This document shows, in pieces, positions 5,046-64,000 of a DNA stretch of 64,000 nucleotides; position 1 is the first letter of the stretch; each line of letters begins with the position of its first letter. A program made the translations under genes and the position numbers. Source of the stretch: Xylanimicrobium pachnodae JCM 13526 = NBRC 107786. Its GTDB lineage: Bacteria > Actinomycetota > Actinomycetes > Actinomycetales > Cellulomonadaceae. Below the pieces are notes generated by a model. It was not told the DNA's origin. It searched no databases and was given only the letters and a program-made list of their open reading frames with translations. The stretch spans positions 62,001 to 126,000 of the forward strand of contig BCWJ01000005.1 of assembly GCA_001592145.1 (NCBI GenBank). Reading direction: 5' to 3'.

Positions 5046-5537
5046 GTGGAGCATAATGCGACAAACCTCTGAATGGCTCTCAGGGCTGTTGTAAAGGCGG
5101 TTCCGCAGGAATTCTTTGGTGGCCGGCGGCAATTGTTAGCACAGGCACCAAAATGCGTTTGAGGACGAACGCAAATCGGCGACGACGCCTGATCACAGAT
5201 CGGTAACGACGCACGTCTCATCGGGCGAGCACGCAGGGAGCGTGCCAGGTAGCACGCAGACGGCTCCTGGTTCCACGGCACCGGCGATCGATCGCCGCCT
5301 CACAGGGCCGCTGGCAGCGCAAACGCAGCCCAACAGCCTACGTGGTGCCGCACCGCGAGGGCGCAGACACGCCGCCTGCGGCCATCTCACGACGTGGCGC
5401 CTCCATCCCGCGACAACCCTCTTGCTGTTCACGCAGCGCCACCGGCGCTCACGTGGAGTACAAGCCAGCCGGAAGCCTTGTCGGACGCGCGGTCCGTCGA
5501 CTAGTGGGCCGCCATCCGAATGAAGGAGGTGGCTGTG
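5046..5537 (+). other. Long upstream region of the giant surface-protein gene
   Basis: A roughly 490-bp gap that is clearly more AT-rich at its left end than the surroundings. A CATAAT (5052-5057) and several TTG-containing tracts could be promoter elements, but I cannot fix a start site. The ORFs in it look spurious. It ends with a textbook ribosome site AAGGAGGT (5523-5530) placed 8 bases before ATG 5538. Confidence 0.5.
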
Positions 5538-11500: not shown

Positions 11501-12494
11501 CGTGGTCATCACGGACGACCTGTCCGGGGTGCTGGGCCACGGTGAGCTCATCAAGGGTTCGCTTGAAGCCAGCCAGGGAGACCTGGTGGAGGACGGCGAG
11601 ACGCTGGTGTGGACCATCGACCCCCTGGAGGAGGTGGCTACCGCCACGTACACCGTGAAGGTGGCGGCGGACGCCTACGGCGTCGACCTGGTCAACGTGG
11701 TCACCGGCTCCGGTGGCCCGGACGACGACGGCAACGGTGAGGGCGACAACCCGCCGACCTCCTGCGCCGCCGACGTGGAGGACGTCGACGACCAGTGCAC
11801 CACCACGCACACCGTCGACCCGACGTGGACGCTCGCCAAGACCAGCGACGACCCGGACGGCAAGGCCGAGCCCGGTCAGGTCATCACCTACACCCTCACG
11901 GCCACGCCTCTGGGCGAGAACGTCGATGCGCTGACCGGCCTGGTCATCACCGACGACCTCTCCGACGTGGTCGCCGACGGCAAGGCGACGTTCGAGGCGA
12001 TCCTCGGCGACGACGTGAACGCCGTGCTGAACGAGGAGGGCACCGCCCTGGTCTGGACGCTTGACGGGCTCCCCGAGACCGCCACGCTCCAGTACACGGT
12101 GCGGGTCGCGGACGACGCTCACGGGGTCACCCTGCGCAACGTGGTGACCGGCACCAGCGTCGACGGGAACCTCCCGCCGGCCACGTGTGCCGCACCCGAG
12201 CTGATGGACCCCGCGACCCTGGACGTGACGCCCATGGCGCTCGACAGCCAGGCGCTGGAGTTCGTCGACGAGGAGTGCTCGACGGTGCACGTGACCGACC
12301 CGGTGGACCCGGCTGACCCGGCTGACCCGGCCGACCCGGCCGCGAAGCCGGGAACGACGGCCAAGGCGGTCACCGGTGGTGACGTGCTGCGGAACCGTAC
12401 CGGTCTCCTGTGGACCGCTGGCGTGCTGCTGGTGGGTGGCCTCGCCGCCCTGGTCCCGGTGCTGCGGCGCCGTCGGAACGGGGGTCTCAACTGA
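5538..12494 (+). CDS. Giant VWA/pilin-like cell-surface protein
   Basis: About 2,318 residues. The signal peptide is residues 1-30. A von Willebrand A domain begins near residue 122, with an intact metal-site motif DVSGS at 129-133. The middle holds a series of Cna-B/FctA-like isopeptide pilin domains (recurring GRxWxxGDxFTF, GTYVYxVxE and FTNxY). From about residue 1,650 come at least five DUF11-like repeats of roughly 140 residues (WTLxKSSDxxxxxxPGxxxTYTL ... NVVITDDLSDVL ... LRNVVTG), often ending in Cys pairs. The C terminus is a DPADPADP linker, KAVTGG, a hydrophobic helix and RRRRN. A start at 5538 is chosen over 5520 for its strong SD. It is probably a stalk or adhesin displayed at the envelope, anchored by the adjacent sortase or held in the membrane. 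Confidence 0.9.
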   Translation: MRLKRVISATTAAVLALLGTVAVGVSATAEPEAMAWKTVVDPETHHEYPGAGGQDAAAWFNSTSHAGRVWTDKSVFDQTVTAKPGDENEGARPVVVEPGQLAVALSALGATRHVTSEIPTPIDVVLVLDVSGSMAFCTTSSGNCNTASTYQNSRAYAMAQAVNTAIDVILTDNPENRIALTRFSSGSGVMQSLGTPRVLSNSTGETPEYVRLEHSDQTTLRLRYVDDSGSEVRETITGGTNTQLGLYTGMNILATQTAAEVTGDNQRLPNVVLLSDGQPTYSATATDWWAPGTGYQGPGSGSYYGNGFKAAMTASYLKNKITAVYGSTDNPIQIDPRVYTVGLGITGLSGNDLDLAMATLDPKANFGNTTGSMFRSFNSAFATYLSGGTPTVTVNANSGQNSSAGVNYLVGQVPQGDSNQVTDLRYNDAFYAPVTKDDLVDVFTEIAKQIVAPVGNPPTETEQGSAGTSGHVTFTDPLGQFMEVERIDQLTFCSVQGEDPDTCELATFTPTGSTNTATSTGSIDSYTFTGSYAANEIYGTSNVGDIKVTVERFTDPAIGDTVTVKIPASLLPLRNSYIEENVNGEPTSMEVTVSHPVHVYYVVEPKDGVVDSLGDPYALNEVYAGAGDALAQYVRSNTVGGRVQFFSNDFTAAASGNTAKTTAIFTPAEQNLFYRFGENTTLYKDADLQQTFTQAEWNALDDDTTVYYVFNSYVREGGNATSVRPDPVLLQTTKTLLEAPGKDVEVQGRKLIVVDNAMTAPKGMRDFSGRATNLDHVKCDALSWVDGVPSCNTTRAAAANDTGTAELARSTAYIGQSVVVSLGNNGLLSAPVPGTLTISKEVAYATGLNPNLDQTFDFTVTFGGSVTEGATFPYSVYAQSDLTTPLEGRSGTVGSGGTIQLKHGEIAEVSGLPHDADYTVSEVTPLPSGYTLTSPSGPVTGTVTVPQETPDRAAFVNTYAPAATPAVATPTIQKVLDGENWQAGDVFQALLRPQFGGDDVVRPLGTDPSAAAFGEIAFTAPGTYVYTITEVDGNEPGVSYSGAEYTWTVTVTDNGTGTLTATDTLTKVRNDAGVTVSEPAATAVFTNLYSLDSETGNLQATKMVEDRTQPGDPHRAPTLEHDFFYWYLASSSADAPAAPRFPGDLTQVTVSTSGSSVVSPDLTFGQEHVGYTYYYAVKELPNAAHQGVIYDTSAYIYRLEVLGASSDAEDAPQVQVVSSRCKTEASAIVNGQVPQGCTFSENTETLFLNVYEAAPGTAELGGTKTLSGRPWADGDAFTFDLMANNAATDAAIDAGIVIMPYAKSLEVVAADQTGGTAAFLFDAVTFTKQGEYQFRVVERASGLPDVVDDLHPAVYDVVVTDPDVDGDLDVAVTVRGGDAATTFTNRWVSASTYSGVDLVKVLPERDLRWNEFSFTVTANDPESAARLNVPAEGVTVTNGENHGDVSLATVLGPVTFTQADLDRTFTYTVVENNTGLGGVTYDPAVHTVTITPVYDAEDGVLDVITTVDGEVQYSTLAGDTPLITFTNHYAATSTTVTLFGAPFELSKTIDGRDWAEGDAFTFQLSAVTEGAPLPEPTTVVVTEANAGGFSFGEVTFEEVGTYVYEVREVTPDQADPNMTYDQRVARLTVTVADPGEGELVATSVVSNADFVNRYVPTTWTLSKSSDQDAAVAPGTEITYTITAADTSDAGAAPVTNVVITDDLSDVLGADDARKAEWVGFVGEPAGAVFDGTTLTWTLDELSGEQTLSYTVKVTDDAHGVTLRNVVTGMGNVGEDGQGDTPPEACVAGTDAANEPGCFTVHSTAPAWTIEKSSPTAAKVAPGETVEYQVDVTFLGDEGTNIPGVVVVDDLADVLANAQFNKGSIVVSAGSAEPAEDGTLVWTIGDLSADATLTYSVTVNADAFGVDLVNVVTGSGGEDTDDDGTGDDTPPLACVDGEEEQCSTTHSTDPTWTLTKSSDDPDGKAVPGQLITYTLTATVTGEVHGTVPNVVITDDLSGVLGHGELIKGSLEASQGDLVEDGETLVWTIDPLEEVATATYTVKVAADAYGVDLVNVVTGSGGPDDDGNGEGDNPPTSCAADVEDVDDQCTTTHTVDPTWTLAKTSDDPDGKAEPGQVITYTLTATPLGENVDALTGLVITDDLSDVVADGKATFEAILGDDVNAVLNEEGTALVWTLDGLPETATLQYTVRVADDAHGVTLRNVVTGTSVDGNLPPATCAAPELMDPATLDVTPMALDSQALEFVDEECSTVHVTDPVDPADPADPADPAAKPGTTAKAVTGGDVLRNRTGLLWTAGVLLVGGLAALVPVLRRRRNGGLN

Positions 12495-48067: not shown

Positions 48068-48104
48068 TGGTGGAGCTAGGGGGATTCGAACCCCCGACCT
48101 TCTC
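48068..48104 (-). other. Orphan 3' end of tRNA-Ala or tmRNA: attachment-site scar
   Basis: On the minus strand this reads variable loop AGGTC, T arm GGGGG-TTCGAAT-CCCCC, acceptor strand TAGCTCC, discriminator A and encoded CCA. Sequence upstream does not form an anticodon arm or 5' acceptor strand. It is thus a displaced 3' fragment, the usual product when an island integrates into the 3' end of a tRNA or ssrA gene. TAGCTCCACCA fits tRNA-Ala (GGGGCTA 5' end) or ssrA. Confidence 0.8.
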
Positions 48105-49713: not shown

Positions 49714-51597
49714 CTATCGCCCCTTGCGGTTCCTGCGCAGGTCCGCCATCAGGCGCTCGTCAGACCGGAGGATCTGGAAGGCGCGCACGGGAGAGTGCAC
49801 GAACGCGGCATGGAGCCGGTCATCAACTGCGGTCGGTGCGACGCCAAGGGTCTCGATGATGCCGAGAGCGGTGTCGGCGACGTAGGCCCACTGGAGCGCT
49901 GTCTGCGTCTTCGCGGGTCGCAGCCATGCCTCGTTCCCTGCGACGTGGAGTGCCGACACACGTTCGCGGACCCGGTCAGCGGTGCCCTCGCCCAGCACCG
50001 CGGACGCCAGGGTCATGCCGAGCAGCGTGGCAACCAGCGGAAGTTCCTCCCAGCCCGCTGCCTTGCCGCGCAGTGCCTCCGGCCACTCGACGGCGCTGTG
50101 AGCGCGCGTTGCCGTCGACAGCAGCGCGACGAGATCGCGGATCCGCGACTGCGACTTCATCGCATCGCCGCGTGCCGTCGCCCTGTCGAGGAACGAGTCG
50201 ATGTGGCGTGCAGTCGATAACTTGCGGACTGTCCCGTTGCTGTCCACGGGGTCGGTCAGGACGAGCGACGAGAGCCAGGAGACGACCTTCGTGCGCTTGA
50301 ACCGTTCGGTGCTGACACCGCACGACCCGATGTAGCTACCGACGGCGCGAACCTCGACCTCGACAGGTGTGAGGAACGGCGCGGTGACCTCGAAGCCCGG
50401 CCCATCCCCGGCGACGGTCGCGAAGGCCCTCATGACGTCGAGCTCGTGATAGACCGCGTTGCGGATCTCCTCCGCGTTGAGGTGCTTCCCCTGCTTGTTG
50501 TAGAGGTTGAAGACCTCGTGCACCTGCCGCGGGGTTGCCTCGAGGTACTCGATGATGGGCACCTTGTAGTCGGTGGCGCCCTCGAACACGTCGAAGACGC
50601 TCGCCTCACCGCCGCCGACGAGGACGATCTCGTCCTCGATCTCGTGGAAGAAGCGTCCGGCCATCCGACTGAGCTCCGTGCCCTCCCCGAAGTCCTTCGC
50701 GAGCGGGAAGGGGAAGTAGAGCAGGCGTTCGGTTGCCAGGGTCAGGGTGTCACCGGTCGCATCCTTCCAGGCACGACGGAAGGCTGGGTAGTCCTTCTGG
50801 AAGAGGTGCTGAAGATCGTGGCCCGGGCGTGCGAGATCCGCATCGCGCACCGCGCGCAACGCGCTCGGGTGCTTGCCCACGAAGCGGAGGATCGACGTCA
50901 GGCGCTGCTTGCCGTCGACGACCTCGTAGGGGGACGACGCGATCGAGTCGGGTCGGAGCACGATGATCGACGGCAGAGGGATGCCGCGCAGGATGGACTC
51001 GATCAGCAACTGCGCGTCCTTGGTCGGCCACACGTCACCCCGCTGGTATGTCGGGTTGAGATCCAGCTTCTCGCGCTCCGCCTTCATCACGAAGTCCCGG
51101 ATGGTCCAGGTGTCAGCCTTCGCCCGTATCGGCTCACGACTGGAGGCGACCGTCGCCTCGTCCCATGCGTCATACCAACGTTCTGAGGCGGCCTTCGGGG
51201 TGGACTCCTCGATGTCTCCGAGATACCGCTCGCGAAGCGCGACAGCACGCTCCACCCGCTCAAGAAGGTGCTCGAGACCCTGCACGGTCAGGCCGATGCT
51301 GTTGGTCTCGACGTTGCCCGCAAGCCCTCCCTTGCCCAGGCCGGAGAAGAGGTCTCGCAGGACCTCCTTGGTGCTGAGGTAGCTCTCGATCCGCTGGTCG
51401 AGACGCAACCAGTCCTGGACGAGTTCGAGGTAGTCGACCCAGGCCTCGCTGCCAAGGTCGACGTCCGACGACTCGAACGCGCGCGCGACGGCCACACCCT
51501 CCGGCGTCGCTGACGGCTGCGACAGGGCAGCGAGCCCCTGGGCCAGCGCGATCTCCAGGGTCTGGCGGTCGGCGTCGACCGCCTTAAGGGTTGACAT
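49714..51597 (-). CDS. DUF262-domain protein
   Basis: 627 residues. Residues 1-165 are a helical N-terminal extension. A DUF262 (ParB/Srx-like) domain then has NPTYQRGDVWPTKDAQLLIESILRG (from 181) and the motif DGKQR at 228-232, intact relative to the DGQQR used for nucleotide binding or hydrolysis in GmrS-type proteins. The C-terminal 250 residues (FNLYNKQGKHLNAEEIRNAVYHEL and onward) are unassigned; I see no DUF1524 HNH domain, so it is not a standard GmrSD. ATG 51597 has GAGGAG eight bases upstream. It diverges from the helicase operon, sharing a 155-bp control region, which links it to that system. Confidence 0.85.
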   Translation of the reverse strand: MSTLKAVDADRQTLEIALAQGLAALSQPSATPEGVAVARAFESSDVDLGSEAWVDYLELVQDWLRLDQRIESYLSTKEVLRDLFSGLGKGGLAGNVETNSIGLTVQGLEHLLERVERAVALRERYLGDIEESTPKAASERWYDAWDEATVASSREPIRAKADTWTIRDFVMKAEREKLDLNPTYQRGDVWPTKDAQLLIESILRGIPLPSIIVLRPDSIASSPYEVVDGKQRLTSILRFVGKHPSALRAVRDADLARPGHDLQHLFQKDYPAFRRAWKDATGDTLTLATERLLYFPFPLAKDFGEGTELSRMAGRFFHEIEDEIVLVGGGEASVFDVFEGATDYKVPIIEYLEATPRQVHEVFNLYNKQGKHLNAEEIRNAVYHELDVMRAFATVAGDGPGFEVTAPFLTPVEVEVRAVGSYIGSCGVSTERFKRTKVVSWLSSLVLTDPVDSNGTVRKLSTARHIDSFLDRATARGDAMKSQSRIRDLVALLSTATRAHSAVEWPEALRGKAAGWEELPLVATLLGMTLASAVLGEGTADRVRERVSALHVAGNEAWLRPAKTQTALQWAYVADTALGIIETLGVAPTAVDDRLHAAFVHSPVRAFQILRSDERLMADLRRNRKGR

Positions 51598-51752
51598 CAA
51601 GTTGCTCCTCGCACTCGTCCCGCGGACCCGCGCCAGAGTAGCTCCGGTCACCGACAGGTCGTGCGTGGCCACGGGTGAAAAGGTGCCGCGAACTACAAGG
51701 TTGTCGGTGGTCCCTCACATAATGACCATGCATCCAAAGGAGGTTGACGCAC

Positions 51753-54700
51753 GTGCGCGCGAGCAGGGCCGATCTGCAGGAGTACGTCCGCTGGAATGAC
51801 GTCGTCGCGGACGTCCTCTTTCCCGTGCGAGACGAACCGTCCCCGGCATACCTCGACGTGGAGGAGCATGAGATCGCCGAGATCGGCGAGCGGCTCAACG
51901 TCGACGCCAAGGACGTCGTAGACGGGCTCGTCGACGTCGTCGGGCGCACGGTGGACCGCGACTCCTACCGCGACGGGTTCCGTCTCCATCTCGAGCGGGT
52001 GAAGACCTGGCGCGAGCGCAAGACCACCGACATATACCCTTCGGTCGCGACCCTCGCCGTCTTCTCGCTCGCCGCGGAGCGCATGTCTGCCGGGGGCGGC
52101 ATGGCCTCGAGCAACTACTACGGGCGGCTCCACGACCTGCTCGGCGGTGACAAGGACCGGCTGAGCCGCGGATACATGCGCGTCGCGGAGCCGCTCTGGG
52201 CGGGGCTGAACCTCTGGCTCACGACGCTCGGTGGCCGTCGCGGCACTCCGACCGCCTTTGCGCTCGGCAAGCGATACATCGGGCTGCCGCTCTCGCAGGC
52301 CCTCGTCCGTGAGGCTGACCGGCGCAAGCTGGAGCGGTTCTTCGCCGAGTTCGACTTCGCACCGCGCTCAGAGGTCCCCCCGACCGAGCTCGAACCGCTG
52401 CTCGGTGTGTGGCTCTCCGACGAGCAGCGACGGCACTCGCACCTCGGCAGGCTTTGGGCGCAGTCGACGCTGCGAGAGCGCATCGCTGGGGTGGCGTCGG
52501 TCGAGCTCCAGTCCTGGAACGGCCTGGACGAGTCCGAGGAGGCTGGCACGACTCCGCGCGGCCGCGCGCTGCTCGGCCTCCAGTTCCGCGGGTTCCCCCA
52601 GCGCAGGGCGCTGGTCTTCCCGTACTTCTTCCTGAGCGAGTCGGGAGCGGCTCGCACTGCCAGCCTCGCGACGCCCGACGGCAGTCGCCCCGTGCTCCTC
52701 GTCCCCTCGCTCGACCTCCAGGGTGCGATGTCGCTGGACGCCCCGGAGGAGATCGACCCAGCCGACTTCCTCGAGGGCGTTCTCCAGGTGGAGGACGAGC
52801 GCAGCGGGCAGGTTGTGCACCCACCGCGGGCGATGCTCGTCTTCCGCAAGGACGAGCTCTCGAACATCTGGCTCGAGACGCGTCAGGTCCTGATGGGCGA
52901 CGACGTCGTCGTCCTCGCCGCCGATCGCACTGTCGCCACCGTGCGGACTCTGCTGCGCGAGATCGCGCGGCCCGGCTGGACCGCGGACTCAGCCCGGGCA
53001 GGGATCCCCGCAGGCTGGACGCTCTTCGAGAACGTCGAGGTCTTCGGGCGTCCGTCGACCGCGACCGAGAAACTGAACCAGGACTTCCATGCGCTTGTCC
53101 CGCTGACAAGCAGCCAGCTCAAGCTCTCGGGTGGGTTCGCACTCCCTGGAGCGTCGCGCAGCCGCTGGCACGCCAGCCGTGCCCCTGAGGTCCGTGCGAT
53201 GCACGACGGCGGCCCGTTCAAGGTCTGCCTCCTTGACCTGGACGTCGAGGCGACCCAGGACGACGACCGGCTTCTCGATTCATGGTCGGACGACGGCAGC
53301 GGTTCGGTGCTCGTCGACCTCGGCACGCAGGAGCTCCAGGACGGTCACTACGCGCTCGAGATGCGCGCCGGCGACAGGACGGTCGCCAGGCGGGAGTTCA
53401 CGCTGCACTCGGCGGACGACCATGACGCGGACCAGTGGTCGCGGCACGAGACGATCGTGCACTCGCTCGATCGACCGTTGGCCGCTCTTGGGGCCGCCGC
53501 GTCTTTTGATGAAGGGGCGTGCATCGTCCAGGGCGTCGTCATCGCGTCCGACGATCTGCCACAGGCCGCCGCCGTGACGCCGGCTGACCGACCGTGGTGG
53601 ATCCCCGCCAGCGACGCGGTTCGCCCACCGTCGGTGGCACTGCACAAGCCAGACCCGAACTCGTGCCTGTACACCGGCAGGCACAGGCTCGAGCTGCCGG
53701 TTGCGATGAGCGACAACGCGCGCGAAACCGTCACCGGGACGTGCTCCTACTGCGGGACGAAGAAGCGGTTCTCCGCAAACTTCTACCGGAACCGGTTGGC
53801 CTTCGAGCGGAAGAAACAGGCAGTCTCGGCTGACCGCAGCGCGATCGACGTCTCGATGCTGCCACCCGTCGTCACTGGTTCGGCATCCGCGACCGACGAC
53901 TGGGACGTTGCCCTGGACGCGCTGCGTTTCCTCGGCGGCGGCCCGTTCTCGGCCCTTGAGCGCGTGGCACGTCAGATCGACGCGAGCAGCCTCTTCGTCG
54001 CCGACTTCGTGACGACGCTCGAGGCGCTCGGGCACATCGAGGTGCGGCGGGCCGCGGACACGCTGCAGCCCGAGGCGTGGGAGATCGCGCCGACCGCGAT
54101 CGTCGACACCGGCGCGGCGCGGGTGCTCACCGGATTCTGGACCGAGTCGCTGATCACCGAAGCGATGAAGTCGTGCGCAGAGCACGGACGCACCCTGGTG
54201 GCGCGCCCGTACGAGAGCGGCCTGAGCCGCTTCTCGACCGACGCGACGAGCGACGAGCTCGCGGAGTGGCTCGATGTCGAAGGGGTCCTCCTTCCTGGGC
54301 GCACCGGCCACACGATCGCGTCGTTCCTGCCGAGGCTCAGCGAGGTGGTCGCCGCCCTCCCACGCACGCCCGCCCCGACGATGACAGACCTTCAGTGGTT
54401 CGACCCCGCTCGTGCCGCGTGGGTCGATGCGGTCGGCGCCGACTCGCCAGGTGCGTTCCGCATCGGGCGCTATGCAGCCAAGTACTTCGTGCGTACCGAC
54501 ACGGACCTCGCGTGCGGCACGCTCGCCCGGGCGTCGGTGTCGTTGGCTAAGCACTTTGCCGCAGCGACGCTGACCGGCCGGTCGCTGCTCGCCTATGCGA
54601 GCCGCGCACGCACGCTCGTGGTGCCCCTCGGAGCCCTCCTGCCCGGCATGTACGAGCGTGCGGTCGTCCTCGACTCCGGTATTCCCGCGCAGAAGGTCCG

Positions 54701-54770
54701 TGGACAGCACGTGTACCGCGACGTGAGCGAAGACGTCGCGGCCCGGATCGCCTACCTCCTCGAGAACTGA
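51753..54770 (+). CDS. Large partner protein of DUF1998-type helicase (Druantia-like position)
   Basis: 1,005 residues, no family I recognise with certainty. GTG 51753 is set by the SD AAAGGAGGT nine bases upstream. The first 600 residues have no motif I know. A zinc-like [10 protein letters not shown] pair (Cys664, Cys667) follows. Then comes a possible winged-helix stretch ([26 protein letters not shown] ... [15 protein letters not shown]). The rest is alpha/beta with [21 protein letters not shown]. The stop lies 5 bp before the helicase ATG, so the two are made together. Size and placement fit DruH of type III or DruG of type II Druantia; sequence-level proof is lacking. Confidence 0.75.
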
Positions 54771-54775
54771 GCACC

Positions 54776-57700
54776 ATGACGACGACAGCGCCGAACCCGC
54801 TCTCCGTGGGCCGTGCGATCAACGAGACCGTCCTGCGCTACATCGACACCGCGTTCTATCTGCGCGACGACGGTCTGCGCCGTGAGCGGCGCCGGCTCCT
54901 GCTCGACGACGCACGGCTGATGCCCGACCCGTTGCTAGAGCCCGTGCTCCCCTACGACGGTGTCGCCGACGCCGTCGAGGCTTGCGTAGGCGTCGGGATG
55001 ACCGTGGCAGAGGCAGAGTGGCTCGTCCACGGACTGTTCGGGACGAGCCCTGGAGACGACGTGAGGCTTCGGCGTCACCAGGCGGAGGCGCTTGCCACCG
55101 CACTGGCATCGGAGGGGCCGATGAACCCGGTGGTCACCTCGGGCACCGGTTCCGGCAAGACGGAGTCATTCCTCCTGCCGGTCCTCGCCCGTCTGCTCAT
55201 GGAGGCGCGGAAGTGGGGGCCGGCCATCAGCGCGCACCACTGGTGGGAGGGGGACTACTGGTCGCCCGTCCGGGCCCGCGAGACACGTCCGTCGGCGGTG
55301 CGGACCATGGTTCTGTACCCGACGAACGCACTCGTCGAGGACCAGATGTCCCGCCTTCGTCGGACTGCACGGCGGATCGCCGATCTCGGCGGTCCCGCGC
55401 TGTGGTTCGGCCGCTACACCTCTGCGGCCCCCGGCGGCACACGACTCCCGTCTACGACTCGCAAGGACGAGAAGGTCACGGACGTCGGCCGCGATCTGCG
55501 CCTCCTGGTGAAGGAGTACGAGGCACTCGCGTCGAACCCCGAGGTTCGCGACTATCTCTCCGACCCCCGCCGCGTCGAGCTCATCACGCGCTGGGACATG
55601 ATCTCGAACCCGCCAGACATCCTGGTCACCAACTACTCGATGCTCAACGTGATGCTGATGCGTCGCCTCGAAGAGCCGATCTTCGACCAGACCCGCGCGT
55701 GGCTCGCATCCGACCCGCAAAACGTCTTCACGCTTGTCGTGGACGAGCTCCACCTGTATCGCGGGACGCAGGGTTCCGAGGTGGCGCTCATCCTCCGCAA
55801 CCTTTTGATGCGCCTGGGACTCGAACCGGAGTCGCCCCAGGTGCGGGTCATCGGCACGAGCGCCTCGCTCGACGGCGACCGCTCCGAGTACCTTGAGCGC
55901 TTCTTCGGCATCCCGCGCTCCACTTTCAGGCGGATCACCGGCGAGACCCGGCCCGTGCTTGCGGACCTGCCTGTGGCGGCGACCTCCATCGGCACCATGG
56001 ACGCCGAGGCGCTGAGCAACATCCTGGCCGAAGCATGCCGAGACGAGCACGGCGTGATCAGGGCGACTGACCTGGAGACCATCGGCCGTCGAGCGTTTGG
56101 GCCGTCGTCGACACTCAGCGACGTCGAGCGGGCACTCCGGGCGATCGCCGATGCTCCGGACGGTTCCGGCATCCCGTTCCGCGCCCATTACTTCATGCGG
56201 ACGATGCGCGGCATGTGGGCCTGTTCGAACCCTCGGTGCACGGAGATCGCGCAGGACGAGGCGAGGGAGCAACCCGGCATCGGCCGACTTTTCGCGCGTC
56301 CGGTGCACCAATGCCGGTGCGGCGCACGTGTACTTGAGCTGATCTACTGCGGCAAGTGCGGCGACGCAAGCCTGGGTGGCCATGTCGTCGCGAGCGGTAG
56401 CGGCGGGCACTTCCTCGGCATCGACCCCGCCGACAGCGAGCTGGATCGGCCAAAGTTCCTGTTCGAGCGGCGGAACGACGAGTACCGCTGGTACTCGCCG
56501 TCGTCGGACGGCGTCGGTACGCAGTGGTCGCACGGCGGCCCGCGCAAGGACGTCACCTTCCAGTTCTCGCGCGCGTCCTTCGACCCGATGAGCGGCTTCC
56601 TGCAGCCCGACGCCAGCCGGTCAGCAACGGGTACGCTGCTAATGGCTAAGAACTCGGACGACGAGTTCCGACCTCCGGCCCTTCCCTCGCACTGCCCCAG
56701 GTGCCTCCACACGCGCCGTCAGACTGAGTTCAAGCGCGGGCGCGTCGCTTCGGCGTTGCGCGCCCACACCCAAGGCGCCACCCAGGCGACGCAGCTGCTC
56801 GTCGCCGAGATCTTCCGCGAACTAGGAGACGAGCAGGGCACCAGCCGGACCATCGTCTTCACCGACTCGCGAGACGACGCCGCTCGCATGTCCGTCGGGC
56901 TCTCGATGAACCACTACAACGACCTCGTGAGACAGGAGGTGGACCAGGCGCTGTCTGCCCCTGTCGAGGACGCCGGGCTCATCCTCCGCGAGGGTGTCGC
57001 CGGTCGTCTTCCGGCCGACCTCGCCTCCCGGTTCGGTGAGCTCGCTGCGGCCAACCCGCTGCTCCTGGCTGCCTATGCCGCGATCAACGGCGGATACGGC
57101 ACCCCAGAGCAGAAGGCTGCAGTCGAGGAGTTCGAGGCTCGAGTGGCGGCAGACCGCTCGCGCGCATGGACGAACCTCGTGCGGCACCTCGCCCGTCAGC
57201 TCGTCGCGCTGGGAGTGCCGCCGGGCGGCCCGAGGGCCTCGCGGCTCACGCTCGGGGACAGCCGGACCCCGTGGTTCCACGCGTTCGAGCCGCCGAGCCC
57301 GAACCTCTGGATCCCGATCACTGATGCGACGGACCGCCTCGAGTATCAGAAGCGGTTCCATGCGTACATGGCGACGTCGGTCGCCGAGGTCCTCGCCGGG
57401 GCGTCACGGAACTCCCGCGACGCCGAGGACAACCTCGTCGCGGCTGTCGTCCCAAGAGCCCTTGCAGACGACCTCGACGGCCTCCGGTCGACAGCCCTTC
57501 GCTCGGCCATACGCATCTTACTGTCGAGCGGTCGCTGGGCTCCTCAGGACGCGGACGCCGCGTCGCGCGCGTCGCTTCTCCCACGTGATGTCACGAACTA
57601 CCTCGGGCGAGCAGCGATCAGGCTCGGGGTCGCGGCGGAGGAGCTCGAGGCCGACTTCCAGCGGGTACTCGACCCGATGCTCGTCGGCAGCGTCGTCGAT

Positions 57701-60079
57701 CTCGCCGCTGCTGACGTGCCACTTCTCGTGATTCCAGGCGGCGAGGCCGTGTGGGTCTGTGAGCGGTGCGGGCAGCGCCACCTCCACGAGTCGGCGCGGA
57801 CCTGCATCCGGAACGGATGCGACGGCGAGCTGGCGCAACGGGCTCTGGGTGACGTTCGTGAAGAGGACTACTATGCGTGGCTCTCGACGCAGCGGCCGCA
57901 AAGGCTCGCCGTCGCAGAGCTCACCGGCCAGACACGACCGCCGGAAGAGCAGCGCCGCAGGCAGCGCGTGTTCCGAGGCGCGCTGAAGCCAGCGCCGATC
58001 GAGAACCCGCTGACCTCACCGTTAGACGTCCTCTCCGTCACCACGACGATGGAGGTCGGCGTCGACATCGGGTCGCTGCGCTCGACGGTGATGGGAAACA
58101 TGCCGCCCAAGCGGTTCAACTACCAGCAGCGTGTCGGCCGCGCGGGACGCAAGGGGCAGGCATTCTCGTTCGCCGCCACGCTGTGCCGCGACCGGTCGCA
58201 CGACGACTACTACTTCGCCAACCCCGCACGCATCACGGGCGACCCGCCCCCGCAGCCATTCCTCGACACGAACCGCCCCAAGATCCTCAAGCGGGTCGCG
58301 GCGGCTGAGCTCATGCGCCGTGCATTTCGATCGGTCCCAACGCCGCCGAAGCTGCTCCGTGAGAGCGTCCACGGCGCATTCGGCCGAGCGGACGGCTGGA
58401 CCCAGGGGTCAGACCAGGGCGTCCCTCCCATGCGCTACGTCGTCGAGACGTGGCTGCTGAATGCTCCCGACGTCGAGCACGTCGTCCGCCGGCTCGCGGC
58501 CCACACGGGCGTTCCGAAGCAGGTGGTCGACGAGATCGTCGAGTGGGCGCGCGACGGCCTCGTACTCGACGTCGACGACGTGGTCGACTCGCCGGTCTTC
58601 ACCCAGACTGCCCTGAGCGAGCGGCTGGCGAACGCTGGCATTCTTCCGATGTTCGGCTTCCCGACTCGCGTGCGGACTCTCTACCGGACGGGTGCCGACA
58701 ACAGGCTCACGGACGAAGAGATCAGCGACCGTCCGCTCGACCAGGCGGTGTCCCTGTTCGCACCCGGTGCAGAGGTCGTCAGCGACGGGTGGGTCTACAC
58801 GGTGAACGGCTTTGCCTCGGTGTACCGGGACGCGCGCGGCAACGTCCGGACTACTGATCCGCTGCACTCGTCGTTCGTGCTCGAGCGCTGCCCTGTCTGC
58901 GGGTCGTCGACGATCGGCGCGACCGGTCCGGGCAGCAGATCAGACAGGGGGGAACAGCCCAAGTGCCGGGTGTGCTCGGAGAACGTCGTGCCGATGACCG
59001 TCTACCAGCCGGAGGGCTTCCGGACGCACCCGAAGGCGAAGGACGGCGACCTGAGCGACACCCAGGTGCCGACGGCGTCCCGGCCGGTGCTCGAGTGGAC
59101 GGACCTCGGCGGCAAGCGGCCGGCGCGCTCCGGTGCGATGGACATCTGGCGCCTGGAGGACGCCAACCTTGTCACGGTCAACGACAACCGTCGCGCGCAG
59201 TTCGAGCTCTACCGTCATAGCGACCACTCGGTCATCGTCCCCACGATCGAGACTGACAGCATCACGATGCCGAAGATCGGCCAAGGTGCGATCGGTGACA
59301 TCCGGACCACGGACGCTGCCCTGCTGCTCGTGCGCACGGACCGCGTGCCGAGCCAGGTTATCCCGACAGACGGCGCCGACTGCCCGTCCGGACCCGCGGC
59401 GATCATCTCCTTCGCGGAGGCGCTGCGCCGCGGCGCCCAGGCCGAGCTGGACATCGACCCTGACGAGCTCACCGTCGGGCTGCAGCCTCGCCGGCACGAC
59501 AACGGCACGAGGACGGCCGCCGTGTACATCGCGGACACCCTCGAGAACGGTGCAGGGTACGCGCTCGAACTCGCCGGCCCGCGGATGGATGACGTCGTCA
59601 AGCAGATCGCGTTCGGTGCGGGAGAACGCTGGTCGGCCCGTTCGCACGTCGAGTGCGACTCGTCCTGCCCCGACTGCATCCGCTCGTGGGACAACCGCCA
59701 CCTGCACCCCGTGCTCGACTGGCGTCTCGCTCTCGACGTCGCCGAGCTCGCTCTGAACCGGGACCTCACGGTCGGCAGGTGGTTCGACCTGGTACCCGCG
59801 GCGATCGCCGCGTTTGAGGCCGGCTTCCGTGCGATGTTCGAGAAGCACTACCGGGTCGAACAGATCCACGGTGTGCACGTGCTCGTCCACGGCTCCCGGG
59901 CGGCCATCGTCGGCCATCCGCTCTGGAGCCGACGTCCCGAACACCACAACGACGTCCAGCGCGCGGTCGCCGAAGCGGTGAGCGCTAACGCGTGGACGGC
60001 GACCTGGACAGACGCTAGAACGCTGCGCAACCGCGGGGTGCTCGTGGCGCGGGCCTTGGCGGACGGCTTCATCGACTGA
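54776..60079 (+). CDS. DEAH-type helicase with C-terminal DUF1998 region (DruE-like)
   Basis: 1,767 residues. Walker A is GTGSGKT (123-129), then [18 protein letters not shown], Walker B DELH (323-326) and [10 protein letters not shown] (motif III). A zinc-like insertion has CSNPRC (from 483) and [17 protein letters not shown]. The second RecA half has [26 protein letters not shown] and motif [13 protein letters not shown] (1117-1127). The C-terminal part is DUF1998-like: [16 protein letters not shown] (from 1584) and [14 protein letters not shown] (1627-1640). All ATPase motifs look intact. This architecture and size match DruE, the helicase common to Druantia systems; Hrq1/MrfA-like and DpdJ-like helicases are relatives but usually shorter. 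Confidence 0.9.
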
Positions 60080-60236: not shown

Positions 60237-61226
60237 ATGGCGAACGAGTTCCGCGAGGCCGACTATCTTGACCTGTCGTCGGCCGCTGCCCGTTCGCAGT
60301 GGCGGAGCATCGCCGCACGTTCGTATGCACCCGAAGGCAAGCGTCAGGTCACCTTCCTGCCAGTCGAAGCCCTCCTCTGCCTGTCCGCCATGTACCTCGT
60401 GGACCACAGCCGGTTTGGGAGCACCTCGGCGGCTCGTGCTCCGGAGCCGGTTCAGGCGCTCGCGCGTCTGTTCAAGCGGCCACCGTCGAGCGTCCTCGCC
60501 AAGATGGCCAACCTAGATGGCACGCGTTCCCATGGCGGGCGCTGGGACCTGATCGCCGGGGCGAAACTGCGCTCTGATTCCGTTCGAATGACTGCGACAT
60601 ACCGGACGATCCTCGACGCAGCACGCGCCGAGGGGGTCGATTCCACCGAACTGCCAGACTTCCTTGCGCTCGAGAACGCTGGTGAACTCGTCATGCTGGG
60701 CCAAGAAGAGCTCGATCGCGACGCTGTCGACTCCGTCGTCGAGACCGAGCTCGCAAGGTGGCGCGCGCGGCAGGACGACATCTCGGAGCAGGACACCGTT
60801 CGGCTGTTGCTCTCACACGTTCGGGTAGGACAGCACCGATTCGCGGGGGACGTCTTGGCTAACTGCGGACGCGCATGCGTCTTCTGCGGCTTCCAGTTGC
60901 CGCCGGACAGGGGGCCATCGCTCCTTCGCGCCAGCCACATCAAGCCTTGGCGCGACTCGCAAAACAAGGAGCGGCTCGATGTCCGCAATGGCATCGCGGC
61001 GTGCCCTACCCATGATGCTGCGTTCGATGTCGGACTCTTGACCATCGACCCCGATCTGGTCGTACACCGGTCGCCGCGGCTTGAGGCGTCGATGAGCAGA
61101 AACGCGGCCGTCCGCCGATTCTTCGGCGAGGACGCGATCGGCTCGACGCTGCGGCTGCCTGTGAGGTCAGTTGCTCCGTTGCCAGTCTTCATCAACTGGC
61201 ATATGGATCACGTCTACGTCGCTTGA
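60237..61226 (+). CDS. HNH endonuclease
   Basis: 329 residues. The C-terminal HNH domain is intact: CVFC (214-217), SHIKPW with the catalytic His234, LDVRNGIAACPTHDAAFD with Asn251 and His259. The N-terminal 200 residues are helical and contain no domain I can name. The wording SHIKPW...NGI-LCPTHDAAFD is that of restriction-type HNH_2 enzymes. It begins 157 bp after the helicase on the same strand and could be part of the same system or the nuclease of the methyltransferase opposite it. Its 3' end overlaps the degenerate vsr gene by 13 bp. Confidence 0.9.
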   Translation: MANEFREADYLDLSSAAARSQWRSIAARSYAPEGKRQVTFLPVEALLCLSAMYLVDHSRFGSTSAARAPEPVQALARLFKRPPSSVLAKMANLDGTRSHGGRWDLIAGAKLRSDSVRMTATYRTILDAARAEGVDSTELPDFLALENAGELVMLGQEELDRDAVDSVVETELARWRARQDDISEQDTVRLLLSHVRVGQHRFAGDVLANCGRACVFCGFQLPPDRGPSLLRASHIKPWRDSQNKERLDVRNGIAACPTHDAAFDVGLLTIDPDLVVHRSPRLEASMSRNAAVRRFFGEDAIGSTLRLPVRSVAPLPVFINWHMDHVYVA

Positions 61227-61561
61227 GACGCGCCTACAGACCGCTGCCTGACGAATGCCAGCACACGCTCGGTCGCTCCGGCCGGAGTCTCGTGCTCCCA
61301 GACTCGTACGACGGTCCAGCCCAGCTCCGTGAGCAGACGCTCCGTGTCGCTGTCTCGCGCGCGGTTTGCCGCAAGCTTGACGCTCCACCACTCGCTGTTC
61401 GCCCGTGGGTGCGTGCCATGCTCGGGCCCACACTGGTCGAACGGGGTCCCTCGCCCAACGCTGATGCGGGCCCACCTCAATTCACGTGCGGCATGACTCC
61501 AGCGGACCTGCCCACCATGGACTGCCAGTCTGAGCCGAGCCCGTCGATCTGCTTGAGTCAT
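61214..61561 (-). pseudogene. vsr: Degenerate Vsr (very short patch repair) endonuclease
   Basis: 115 residues. The end of a Vsr fold is clear: CGPEHGTHPRANSEWWSVKLAANRARDSDTERLLTELGWTVVRVWEHE. The N-terminal half is not. The family segment FVDGCFWH, which carries the catalytic Asp and His, is replaced by GRGTPFD, and the IR-x-T motif is absent. The remaining frame is open, so a protein may be made, but it should not cut T:G mismatches. It sits 16 bp downstream of the C5-methyltransferase gene, the usual partner of Vsr. Confidence 0.7.
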
Positions 61562-61577: not shown

Positions 61578-63143
61578 TTATCCCGCCACGCCGACCACGT
61601 CGCCCGGTGCGTCGGGCCCCTCTGGGAGGATTGCCTCGATGATCCGCCTGCCATCAGGCGTGAGGCGAAGCAGATCCCGGTCGCGAACGACGTGTCTGCG
61701 CAGGATGTGCTGGACGACGCCGACGTTCACACCGTTGCCCATCTGCTTGTATGTCGCTGAGGCTTTTTGCTTCCCAAAGTCAAACCACTCTGGAAGACCT
61801 TGCAGACGCGCAGTCTCGCGCGGTGAGAGTCGCCGCTCGAGCGGGCCGATAATCGACGTCTGGGTGATCGCGACGAGTGCAGGAAGGTATGTCGGCCGCT
61901 TGGCACGGATGCCCGACGGACGGAAGTGCATCACGGTACCCCACAGCCTCGGTGCATCTTGCGCCTGCCACTCCAGCTTGCGACGTGACGCCGGGAACAG
62001 GTCTGTGTATACCCCCCAGCGGTAGGCCCATGCCACGATCTCCGCGTAGTGCCGTTCGAAGAAGTCGTAGTTGCGGCGAAGGTGTGACTGCTTCCACGCG
62101 GGTAGTGAGTCGTCGATCGGAGGACGCGTCACCGATGGAGGAACGAGGTCGTCGGGGATATCGGTTCGTGCGACGTACCGTTTGCGGTCCTTGACGACCT
62201 CGCGCTCCGGCGCCAGGAACTTCCGGGTGACAACGAGCCGGGAGAGTTCCGGGAAGTGCGTCCAGGAGTCCGCCCAGTAGGGGAAACCTTCTAAAGGCCT
62301 CCCGGTCACGCGGCGGATCGTCGACTCAAGGTCGTCCCATGCGTCGATCCAGAGCGTCTCGGCCTCGGTGAGGCGAAGGTCGACGTTCGTCGGCGCGGGG
62401 TCGTCCGGACGGATGATCCCGCTTGTGAAGAGATCCCACCCAGTCTGGCGGTCACCCGGCTCAAAGAGCTCGGTCCCGCCCTCGGAGCGTGGGAACCGGT
62501 CTGCCATCGAGGCAACAGGTTCGGGGCCGATCGCCTCCGGGTCGATCTCGCCGGTCTCGGTGCGGGGGATGCGTTCCTCGCGCAGATGCTCGGGGATCAG
62601 CGTTGCCGTGATGAAGACGCGTTCACGGACCTGGGGCGTGCCACCCAGCCAAGCTGGAAGCAGGTGCGGCGAGAAGATCGCGGGAGCGCCGGAGACCTCG
62701 TAGCCGAGAAACCGCAGGGTCTCGATGATTGTCAGCCACTCGTGGCGATGTCGTGGTCCGACGAGATTGCGTACGTTCTCCAGGAGTAGGACCGGAGGCC
62801 GGCGCTCCTCGATGATCCTCGCGATGTTCCAGAACAGGGTGCCGCGGGTCTCAGCCATGCCGTGCTGGGCACCAGACTTCGAGAACGGCTGGCAGGGGAA
62901 TCCACCGGTCAGGACGTCGATCTGGCCGTCGTAACCCCGGAGTGTCACACCGTCGTCGTTCGCGTCCTTGGTGATGTCGCCGAGTGCCGGCATGTCCCAG
63001 TTGCGCTCGTAGACGGCCGCCGCATCCTTGTCGATCTCGACGGCGTACTTGCATTCGCCGCCTGTGGCGGCGAGGGCCGCGTGGAACCCACCGATGCCTG
63101 CAAACAGGTCGATGAAGGTGTACTTGGCGTTGGCCTTGCTCAA
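61578..63143 (-). CDS. DNA (cytosine-5) methyltransferase
   Basis: 521 residues from TTG 63143, chosen for GGTGGGAG just upstream and for starting close to motif I; ATG 63203 would add 20 residues. All motifs are present: FIDLFAGIGGFHAAL (I), GGFPCQPFS with the catalytic Cys84 (IV), LLLENVRNLV (VI), RERVFI (VIII), RLSPRETARLQGLPEWF (IX) and YKQMGNGVNVGVV (X). A target-recognition region of about 150 residues lies between VIII and IX, longer than in Dcm. The site methylated cannot be read off. In the neighbourhood it could protect self DNA in the way of DruM in type II Druantia, or belong to a type II restriction system with the HNH gene. Confidence 0.93.
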   Translation of the reverse strand: MSKANAKYTFIDLFAGIGGFHAALAATGGECKYAVEIDKDAAAVYERNWDMPALGDITKDANDDGVTLRGYDGQIDVLTGGFPCQPFSKSGAQHGMAETRGTLFWNIARIIEERRPPVLLLENVRNLVGPRHRHEWLTIIETLRFLGYEVSGAPAIFSPHLLPAWLGGTPQVRERVFITATLIPEHLREERIPRTETGEIDPEAIGPEPVASMADRFPRSEGGTELFEPGDRQTGWDLFTSGIIRPDDPAPTNVDLRLTEAETLWIDAWDDLESTIRRVTGRPLEGFPYWADSWTHFPELSRLVVTRKFLAPEREVVKDRKRYVARTDIPDDLVPPSVTRPPIDDSLPAWKQSHLRRNYDFFERHYAEIVAWAYRWGVYTDLFPASRRKLEWQAQDAPRLWGTVMHFRPSGIRAKRPTYLPALVAITQTSIIGPLERRLSPRETARLQGLPEWFDFGKQKASATYKQMGNGVNVGVVQHILRRHVVRDRDLLRLTPDGRRIIEAILPEGPDAPGDVVGVAG

Positions 63144-63404
63144 CTGGTCTCCCACCTCTGAAGCTTGACAGCTCTCCACCCAGCAAGCAAGTACGGCGCG
63201 CACGACGGCGGAAGAACTCCCGACAACGTAGCTTGTGCAACCGACACGCCCGACTCGTTCGTCCGCAAGAAGCGGTTCAGCGGGTCAGTCGGGTCCGGGT
63301 CCGGACGAGGGGCTCTCGTGCACCCCGACCGAGCAGAGCGTGGCTCGCCATGACTACGCGCCGTTGTACCCGGCCAGCGTCGGTCGGTCTGGTAGGACTT
63401 GGCC

Positions 63405-63909
63405 ATGGGTCTCCGCTCCTTCTCAGACGTCCCGAACCGGATAGTGCGGCTGTACCTCCAAGAAGCGGGCCGCCAGTATGACGCGACCGTGGTCTGCCGC
63501 GCTTCGGCTCGATGCCCCGCGAACTGATCGCACGGTTCGGGTCGTGCTGCGCGTACTGCGGAGAGCCGGTCCAGCGACTCGTCGAGGAGCACCTCGTCCC
63601 GATCAACCGCGATGCCGTTGGACTACATGCCTGGGGAAACATCGTCCCGCCTGCGAATCGTGCAACGACATCAAGGCGGGGAAGCCTTGGACGACCCATC
63701 CCCAGCTCGACGACGCTCGACGTGCGGCGATCACCGCCTACATCGCCGAGTACGCATACGCGCCTGATGTCGCGGAGCTCCGCCCCGTCCTCGAGAAGCT
63801 CTACGCGCTGGCTGACAGCCAGACGCGTTCTCTGGTCGACTTCGGCTTGGTGGCCTCACGTCCGTTCATCACGGGACTCCACGTCAGAAGTGCCAGCCCT
63901 GACCTCTGA
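63405..63909 (+). pseudogene. HNH endonuclease with two frameshifts
   Basis: From ATG 63405 the frame reads MGLRSFSDVPNRIVRLYLQE, then shifts near 63,487 to RGLPRFGSMPRELIARFGS and CCAYCGEPVQRLVEEHLVPI with NRDAVGLHAWGNIVP. It shifts again near 63,650 to ACESCNDIKAGKPWTTHPQL, which runs to TGA at 63909. Joined, this is a complete HNH gene with CxYC, EEHLVP (HNH His), N and CxxCN. Each break would be mended by one base in a C run, so it is either a recent pseudogene or sequencing error. Confidence 0.75.
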
Positions 63910-63919
63910 TGACCGCTCC

Positions 63920-64000
63920 CTATGCGAGCGCCTCGGAGTAGATCAGGAAGTTGTCGATGTGCTTCTTCAGGATCTTGACCTTGAGCTCGCGGGCGGCCCC
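63920..64000 (-). CDS. C-terminal end of an unknown protein (runs off right edge)
   Basis: The last 26 codons of a minus-strand gene, ending HIDNFLIYSEALA and TAG. The coding style (ELKVKILKKHIDNF) is convincing but too short to assign. It faces the frameshifted HNH gene tail to tail. Confidence 0.55.
   Translation of the reverse strand, partial: GAARELKVKILKKHIDNFLIYSEALA

Follow-up and report, generated by a model that had tools for sequence, protein, structure and literature searches.

A 64,000-nucleotide stretch of the Xylanimicrobium pachnodae JCM 13526 = NBRC 107786 genome (contig BCWJ01000005.1, positions 62,001 to 126,000; hereafter the window) carries two long adjacent genes, and the question they raise is whether they form the core of a Druantia anti-phage system and, if so, of which type. 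The first gene, druF (51753-54770, forward strand), starts at a GTG and encodes 1,005 residues. The second, druE (54776-60079, forward strand), starts at an ATG and encodes a superfamily 2 (SF2) helicase of the YprA/MrfA type, 1,767 residues long, with matches to the Pfam DEAD, Helicase_C and MZB domains. Only 5 bp (54771-54775) separate them, and the open reading frames (ORFs) of this two-gene operon were confirmed as described in an earlier note made from the sequence alone. That note also described both starts as preceded by Shine-Dalgarno sites. This holds for druF, where AAGGAGG (51737-51743, forward strand) ends 9 nt upstream of the GTG, but not for druE, where we looked for an AGGAGG-like site upstream of the ATG and none was present. 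The druF site favours the GTG at 51753 over a TTG located 9 bp further upstream, which would yield a protein of 1,008 residues. Since druE lacks such a site, its translation by coupling with druF is the likelier arrangement. The G+C content at third codon positions is 0.87 for druF and 0.85 for druE, compared to 0.50 and 0.51, respectively, at second positions; on the evidence of this contrast and of the full-length homology described below, chance ORFs are excluded for both genes.

Both proteins were compared with the PADLOC-DB profiles. DruE matched the DruE2 model (PDLC00015) with 1,447 bits over residues 7-1761, and scored lower with DruE4 (1,243 bits), DruE1 (561 bits) and DruE3 (393 bits at best). 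The partner matched the DruF2 model PDLC00023 with 738 bits (E = 5.5e-222) over residues 7-1004 of 1005, and a second DruF model, PDLC00016, with 715 bits (E = 4.2e-215) at full length. All 11 PADLOC families that it matched at E ≤ 1 were DruF or DruL, with no DruH among them. The full-length DruF2 match rules out a new or unknown protein family, which is how the earlier note had presented the partner; its author was unable to name the protein because no Pfam model scores above threshold on DruF. With the partner named as DruF, the argument for a new subtype drawn from its anonymity falls away. The DruE2 and DruF2 models are already known in PADLOC-DB, and the pair represents a variant within a known system rather than a new one. 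Judged by these profile matches, it is almost certainly a Druantia DruF-DruE pair and very probably serves in phage defence; the note's reading of a Druantia-like defence core with an intact DruE is borne out by the DruE2 score and by the intact helicase motifs.

These motifs were located by pattern matching and all lie on the forward strand. They comprise Walker A (GTGSGKTE, residues 123-130, 55142-55165), the Walker B or DExH box (DELH, residues 323-326, 55742-55753), TSAS at residue 361, motif V at residue 1089 and motif VI (QRVGRAGR, residues 1118-1125, 58127-58150), the last being invariant in an alignment of 10 sequences. The MZB/DUF1998 zinc-binding region covers residues 1546-1635 (59411-59680, forward strand; Pfam PF09369, E = 4e-8), and six CxxC motifs lie at residues 525, 640, 995, 1372, 1397 and 1631. 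The helicase described beforehand, with intact motifs, zinc-like insertions and a DUF1998-like end, is thus recovered, except that its "DEAH" box reads DELH and is of the DExH type, not literally DEAH. The end of DruE was examined on a C-terminal model of mean predicted local distance difference test score (pLDDT) 69.3. The model resembled MrfA (6znp; Z 13.9, 183 residues, root mean square deviation (rmsd) 4.9) and DrmAB (Z 10.7, 239 residues, rmsd 4.4), and its final 100 residues or so gave only a weak match to Argonaute (Z 5.0, 81 residues). Beyond residue 555 (model numbering) the alignment of 10 sequences contains no D...E-x-K set, the invariant positions being only R569, H615-W618 and D647. 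An inactivated Vsr domain has been predicted in the DruE of types I and II, according to the excerpts of PMC12458937; our comparison of modelled folds neither confirms nor excludes this reading.

Could DruE instead be a housekeeping repair helicase of the MrfA/Hrq1 type next to an unrelated gene? It shares with MrfA/YprA the SF2 helicase and the C-terminal zinc-binding MZB/DUF1998 module, its C-terminal fold is MrfA-like, and a PDB sequence search placed YprA/MrfA (6znp) directly after the best matches, the large helicases 9wae and 9tu7. However, DruE is far larger than MrfA/YprA and has a conserved defence partner, and the DruE models score far above any other over the full length of the protein. 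The association with DruF was assessed in 29 distinct loci (the window, L012-L026 and L048-L060), annotated with profiles built here; L047 duplicates L016 and was omitted. All were picked by their DruF, the profiles match their own members by construction, and gene calls in related loci come from ORFs and codon-position G+C, with uncertain starts. In all 29, DruE is found downstream of DruF and on the same strand. The intervening sequence contains DruL in L013 and L059, and in L058 a split end of DruF, which may reflect a frameshift rather than two genes. Moreover, the pair is rare and carried by an island (see below), and DruF was found in only one of 11 genomes of the genus, that of the window itself. 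The best matches to DruE models and the conserved adjacency to DruF, the two points on which the earlier note had staked its reading, refute the repair helicase, whose probability we take to be negligible. Similarly, DISARM has DrmA and a separate DUF1998 protein, DrmB, unlike the window, where helicase and MZB are in one chain; DrmA models reach at most 39.7 bits on DruE, among the best 25 of 30 families.

The distribution of DruF is sparse beyond the genus. A search with the window DruF found it in 2 of 396 genomes of the phylum, and a profile search in 17 of 396 genomes of the order, the window's own being included in each count; three of the matches in the order (G418, G597 and G804) are short and partial. 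A scan of genome contigs returned 11 DruF loci, plasmid records two, and phage records one partial match on a 4.3-kb record. Within the window's order, a protein of G062 scores 1,401 bits with the top DruF model, and the DruF family is therefore known outside Proteobacteria as well.

The length of DruF is explained by its C-terminal third. Residues 755-1003 (54015-54761, forward strand) match the PADLOC DruL4 model (PDLC00057, E = 1.3e-12). A separate DruL gene stands between DruF and DruE in L059 (135 bits) and L013 (341 bits), and L060 presents the fused form, with DruF4 over residues 13-583 and DruL4 over residues 703-1030 (114 bits). The long DruF therefore consists of DruF plus DruL, and we infer that a single module accounts for both the DruL of type IV and the terminal part of the long DruF. 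A PDB sequence search with DruF and with a DruF profile gave no significant relative. The structure prediction that the earlier note had proposed for the partner was carried out from 12 sequences and yielded a model of mean pLDDT 74.7, from which the fold of one region could be named and no catalytic fold emerged. In this model the N-terminal quarter is helical, the middle is rich in β-strands and the C-terminal third is mixed. A cysteine-containing linker of low confidence precedes the C-terminal third, with C638, H644, C664 and C667 invariant in the 12 sequences. The best structural match (VIA) is an Ig-like sandwich at residues 453-555 (6oe6; Z 9.2, 91 residues, rmsd 2.7). The VIA list consists mostly of β-sandwiches at about residues 451-553, with little on other regions. 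No nuclease fold stood out in the match lists, an absence that is no proof.

A tree of 28 DruE proteins, from a quick maximum-likelihood analysis with SH-aLRT support only, placed the window with L016 (support 100), then with L056 and L058 (99) and then with L017 and L021 (100). L025, which like L017 ends at a contig end, was omitted. By this tree the window belongs to a supported six-member actinobacterial clade; its closest relative, L016, is Pseudactinotalea terrae, of the same order (Micrococcales, Actinomycetota, at NCBI). A separate clade (100) unites the alphaproteobacterial loci. Support is weak (25 and 53) along the backbone that joins the remaining actinobacterial rows, and the branch of L057 is very long. 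The gene that follows DruE differs within the window's clade: an HNH gene in the window, a converging methyltransferase in L016, an ORF without PADLOC match in L058 and a 340-residue DUF4268 protein in L021 (L021:18266-19288; PADLOC PDC-S11; Nocardioides sp. GY 10127). In L056 (genome G497) a SAVED-type gene (L056:4598-5785; PADLOC SAVED6, 286 bits), part of another defence system, converges on DruE.

Does the pair have a third gene? The gene after druE is HNH and not DruG. No DruG was among the PADLOC matches of the pair's neighbours, to which the search for it applies (P0003, P0004 and a 344-residue ORF at E ≤ 10; the restriction enzyme; the methyltransferase at E ≤ 1, best 25 of 62 families); PADLOC-DB holds a DruG model, which no protein analysed matched. 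DruK, a PD-(D/E)XK nuclease, is present in 10 of the 29 loci. The DruF-DruE order is as in the window in L012, L018, L019, L048-L052 and the divergent locus L020, and PADLOC agreed in all five of the DruK loci on which it was run (L012, L013, L018, L020 and L049). A profile search did not find DruK in the window's island; elsewhere in the same genome there is one weak partial match to the DruK model (contig 49, E = 3.7e-9 over 120 positions). A 655-residue gene resembling superfamily 1 (SF1) helicases follows DruE in six loci, all alphaproteobacterial (L014, L015, L022-L024 and L026). By position this gene had been assigned as DruG, an identity rejected since the four proteins scanned against PADLOC at E ≤ 10 all matched SF1-helicase models only (GajB, NERD+UvrD and similar), with no DruG. 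A gene for a DNA cytosine-5 (C5) methyltransferase also occurs in all six of these loci, and a gene matching the MvaI/BcnI profile in five. Neither DruK nor the SF1-helicase-like gene was found in 13 of the 29 loci, two of which (L017 and L025) are those cut by contig ends; an upstream gene on the opposite strand of L060, which matches the SF1-helicase profile with 21 bits, was not counted. Profile annotation found neither gene in the window's six-member clade, L017 ending within or just after DruE.

The HNH endonuclease of the window (60237-61226, forward strand; 329 residues; Pfam HNH_2, E = 3.3e-11) might take the place of DruK as the nuclease effector. It lies on the same strand 157 bp past druE, HNH-profile genes are present in five of the 29 loci (the window, L012, L013, L048 and L050, the profile being built from the first three), and the end of DruE has no invariant nuclease triad of its own. 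However, L016 has no HNH gene at this position. Homologues at E 1e-30 occur in four of 198 genomes of the order, the window's own included, and the other three all carry the gene away from DruF: among genes without profile match, next to large ARMADA-like genes (by eye), and beside a C5 methyltransferase. This rules out HNH as a fixed component of Druantia, the HNH genes next to Druantia in L012, L013, L048 and L050 being more distant relatives; the neighbour is probably not a part of the system, and we consider its role as effector quite improbable. Large gene pairs resembling an ARMADA/BREX-like helicase plus a PglX-type gene, as judged by eye from the protein starts, were seen at L057:3-4714 and L078:10575-18517; they adjoin Druantia in L057 and an HNH homologue in L078.

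The locus was then set against the described types. It resembles type II (DruM-DruF-DruG-DruE) in its DruE2-type and long DruF2-type proteins and in a DruM2-matching cytosine methyltransferase close by. It differs from type II in having no DruG match, in the methyltransferase, which is placed outside the operon on the opposite strand and shares 28% identity in the matched part with the enzyme next to an alphaproteobacterial DruF-DruE, and in its actinobacterial host, type II being reported only from Proteobacteria in the excerpts of PMC8565338. Like type IV (DruE-DruF-DruL), it has DruE and DruF without DruG as well as DruL-like sequence, but this sequence is fused to DruF and a DruM-like gene is nearby; type II models outscore type IV models both for DruE (1,447 against 1,243 bits) and for DruF (738 against 142 bits). 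The DruE-DruF-DruK loci have the same DruF-DruE order, but their third gene was not found in the window's island or in its clade. Type III (DruH-DruE) is similar in its layout of two genes, a large partner and a giant helicase, and its DruE3 models give up to 393 bits; however, the partner here is DruF, with no DruH match, and an active PLD nuclease domain is predicted in type III DruE in the excerpts of PMC12458937. Thus, as far as the profiles tell, none of the published Druantia types fits the locus exactly: it yielded no DruG, its DruL is part of DruF and it lacks DruK. The absence of a DruG match and of DruK, the DruF-DruL fusion and a separate DruE clade make a case for a variant, which is weaker than the case for a new subtype. 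We read the pair as very likely the DruF-DruE core of a type II-lineage Druantia system against phages, located on an island of about 26 kb in a tRNA-Ala gene.

A mechanism can be proposed for this core, in which DruF would act as a sensor or adaptor that detects some feature of replicating phage DNA. Its parts would be the helical N-terminal region, the Ig-like β-sandwich, the conserved cysteines, possibly forming a zinc-ribbon-like element, and the DruL-like C-terminal part. DruF would then recruit or activate DruE, which would translocate on phage DNA and unwind it at the expense of ATP, thereby blocking phage replication. Since the end of DruE has no invariant nuclease triad, any DNA degradation would come from elsewhere or not be needed; it could be supplied in trans, by DruK in sister loci and here by host recombination nucleases or neighbouring restriction genes. 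In type III, DruE is a helicase-nuclease effector acting on replication intermediates that contain single-stranded DNA and DruH is the likely sensor, as described in the excerpts of PMC13192584, and the DruH-DruE of M. smegmatis stops circularisation and replication of phage DNA, according to those of PMC13316683. Among the matches listed from open-licence papers we found no work on the mechanism of types II and IV.

Several points weigh against this proposal. The sensor role of DruF is drawn by analogy with DruH and not from homology. The modelled DruF has no convincing catalytic or sensor fold, its best match being a common β-sandwich, and a Foldseek search with the model gave no match at E 0.001 among 863. 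The pair could be incomplete if a third gene is required: in the excerpts of PMC8565338 DruG and DruM are requisite for type II, and type IV has a separate DruL. Moreover, there are signs of decay nearby, namely a Vsr remnant and a broken HNH-like ORF. The division of labour between a DruF sensor and a DruE helicase is therefore a close call, on which we lean slightly towards doubt. A further proposal, which we advance only tentatively and consider somewhat doubtful, is that the DruF-DruL fusion and DruE form a complete minimal Druantia in one actinobacterial clade, needing no DruG, DruK or DruM, any DNA cutting being done by restriction enzymes or host nucleases that happen to be available. 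If true, types II and IV would share DruF-DruE as their real core, supplemented by third genes that are interchangeable. The reduced natural pair is the simplest test object for whether the helicase and DruF alone can defend. A DruL that equals the C-terminal third of the long DruF, together with a third gene that varies by clade, suggests a simpler classification. As far as the open-licence literature tells, the DruK-less clade without recognised third gene, the reading of a DruF-DruL fusion and the quantified methyltransferase link presented below are new.

The methyltransferase in question is a 541-residue DNA C5 enzyme (61578-63203, reverse strand; Pfam DNA_methylase, E = 3.8e-76) converging on the operon from 1.5 kb downstream of the pair, on the opposite strand and with a restriction enzyme beside it. 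It is a candidate DruM-like protein or an ordinary restriction-modification (R-M) enzyme: it matches both MTase_II (PDLC03220, 1,084 bits) and DruM2 (PDLC00034, E = 1e-175), of which MTase_II scores better. The neighbouring type II restriction enzyme (MTaX1) has its C-terminal end in the window (63920-64000, reverse strand) and continues on L006 to position 7389, the full gene being L006:5920-7389 (REase_II PDLC03409, 806.7 bits; MTaX1, E = 8.4e-25); a homologue is found in L016. Between the HNH gene and the methyltransferase is the Vsr-like remnant (61214-61561, reverse strand), of which only the C-terminal half is Vsr-like by a profile built here (E = 4.6e-25) and by reading of the frames; longer Vsr ORFs exist in L012, L016 and L019. 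Upstream, a 652-residue DUF262/GmrSD_N protein (49714-51672, reverse strand; Pfam GmrSD_N, E = 3.1e-23) is divergent from druF, and L016 has a protein 47% identical to it in the same place. Past the start of the methyltransferase gene, at about 63520-63720, pieces of HNH-like motifs occur in two forward frames, apparently from a broken HNH gene.

The methyltransferase might form one unit with the pair, as a DruM acting in trans: 5-methylcytosine would then be the self mark and DruF-DruE would attack unmarked DNA. In the METHYLTRANSFERASE analysis, 14 of the 17 DruF-bearing genomes of the order had a PF00145 gene no more than 15 kb from DruF, and 15 had one within 20 kb; in 10 of the 14 it was the sole PF00145 gene found in the genome. 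PglZ, a marker of BREX, served as control: among 24 genomes of the same order sample with PglZ, a PF00145 match lay within 20 kb in one, and that match was partial. The distance allowed was thus 15 kb from DruF but 20 kb from PglZ. Fisher's test gave p = 2.6e-7, or 5.4e-5 when only methyltransferase-bearing genomes were counted; these values are too small, owing to shared ancestry among the genomes and to fragmented assemblies and weak PglZ matches that lower the control count. Five of 25 PglZ matches are indeed weak, with E values between 1e-9 and 1e-11, and the control count is further reduced by the location of several matches close to a contig end. Split matches of one methyltransferase gene were merged by hand, leaving 24 and 17 genes. 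The exceptions were G497 (L056), with its methyltransferase 2.9 Mb away, G549 (L058), where none was found, and G597, at 17.4 kb. Because two of these three are near relatives of the window in its DruE clade, the link between DruF and a C5 methyltransferase is strong but not obligatory, and in this form it offers a testable lead on self/non-self marking.

Across the loci, a C5 methyltransferase is present in the fetched stretch of 19 of the 29, on either side of DruF-DruE and on either strand. In 10 of the 17 DruF genomes the methyltransferase is of the window's type, scoring more than 400 bits with a profile for which three of these enzymes were used. Away from DruF there were 26 methyltransferase genes, nine in DruF genomes (besides that of G597 at 17 kb) and 17 in the PglZ control; 20 of them were compared, and four were of the window's type (L081, L082, L088 and L090). 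The enrichment, the frequent lack of any other PF00145 gene and the DruM2 match speak for a DruM in trans. However, within the six-member clade only the window and L016 have the gene close by, none being found in the stretches examined of L021 and of L017, which ends at a contig end, and the window enzyme has its own restriction enzyme and fits the model of ordinary type II methyltransferases better than that of DruM2. We therefore regard a DruM in trans as unlikely.

The methyltransferase, the Vsr remnant, the restriction enzyme and the DUF262 protein may instead be an independent R-M cassette that shares defence islands with Druantia and has no mechanistic link to it. The set of methyltransferase and restriction enzyme recurs in L016, and DruF-DruE stands without a C5 methyltransferase nearby in G549 and G497. 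GmrSD_N, Z1 and DUF4420 genes lie beside the methyltransferase in G474, as do DUF262-profile and Z1 genes in G733. Against this, the enrichment is far stronger than for a second defence marker among the sampled genomes of the order, and the methyltransferase is retained while its position and partners vary. We judge an independent cassette fairly probable; an R-M cassette accompanying Druantia is the simplest reading of the methyltransferase, restriction enzyme and Vsr remnant of the window. In G474 (L101:3683-11178) and G733 (L102:1209-8143) the methyltransferase, DUF262 and Z1 genes stand together upstream of DruF-DruE, a recurrent cassette near Druantia.

Finally, the setting of the pair was determined. 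A 35-bp exact copy of the 3′ end of tRNA-Ala(CGC) at 48070-48104 forms the left att repeat, with a second copy at L006:16003-16037 (74003-74037 in window numbering). A tyrosine integrase gene (L006:14260-15774) is located just inside the right end, and the G+C content, at 0.74-0.77 up to 48 kb, drops to 0.60-0.70 within the island (2-kb bins). Because of the att repeat, the tRNA gene, the integrase and the G+C drop, the Druantia pair is most likely cargo of an integrative island of about 26 kb in tRNA-Ala. A search of the genus gave no empty junction of the island. Two genomes of the genus, G403 and G405, each have a single stretch of about 345 bp with 71-73% identity to the left flank, at a distance of 15.8 and 30 kb, respectively, from the same tRNA gene, which suggests other insertions in these two genomes and tRNA-Ala(CGC) as a possible hotspot for insertion in the genus. 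The bin of lowest G+C content in the island holds a 259-residue ORF (L006:10995-11774, 68995-69774 in window numbering) without Pfam match at E 0.01. Elsewhere in the window, 5520-12494 encodes a 2,324-residue surface protein with VWA_2, FctA (Spy0128-like isopeptide), DUF7601 and DUF7927 repeats, probably of the pilus or adhesin type.

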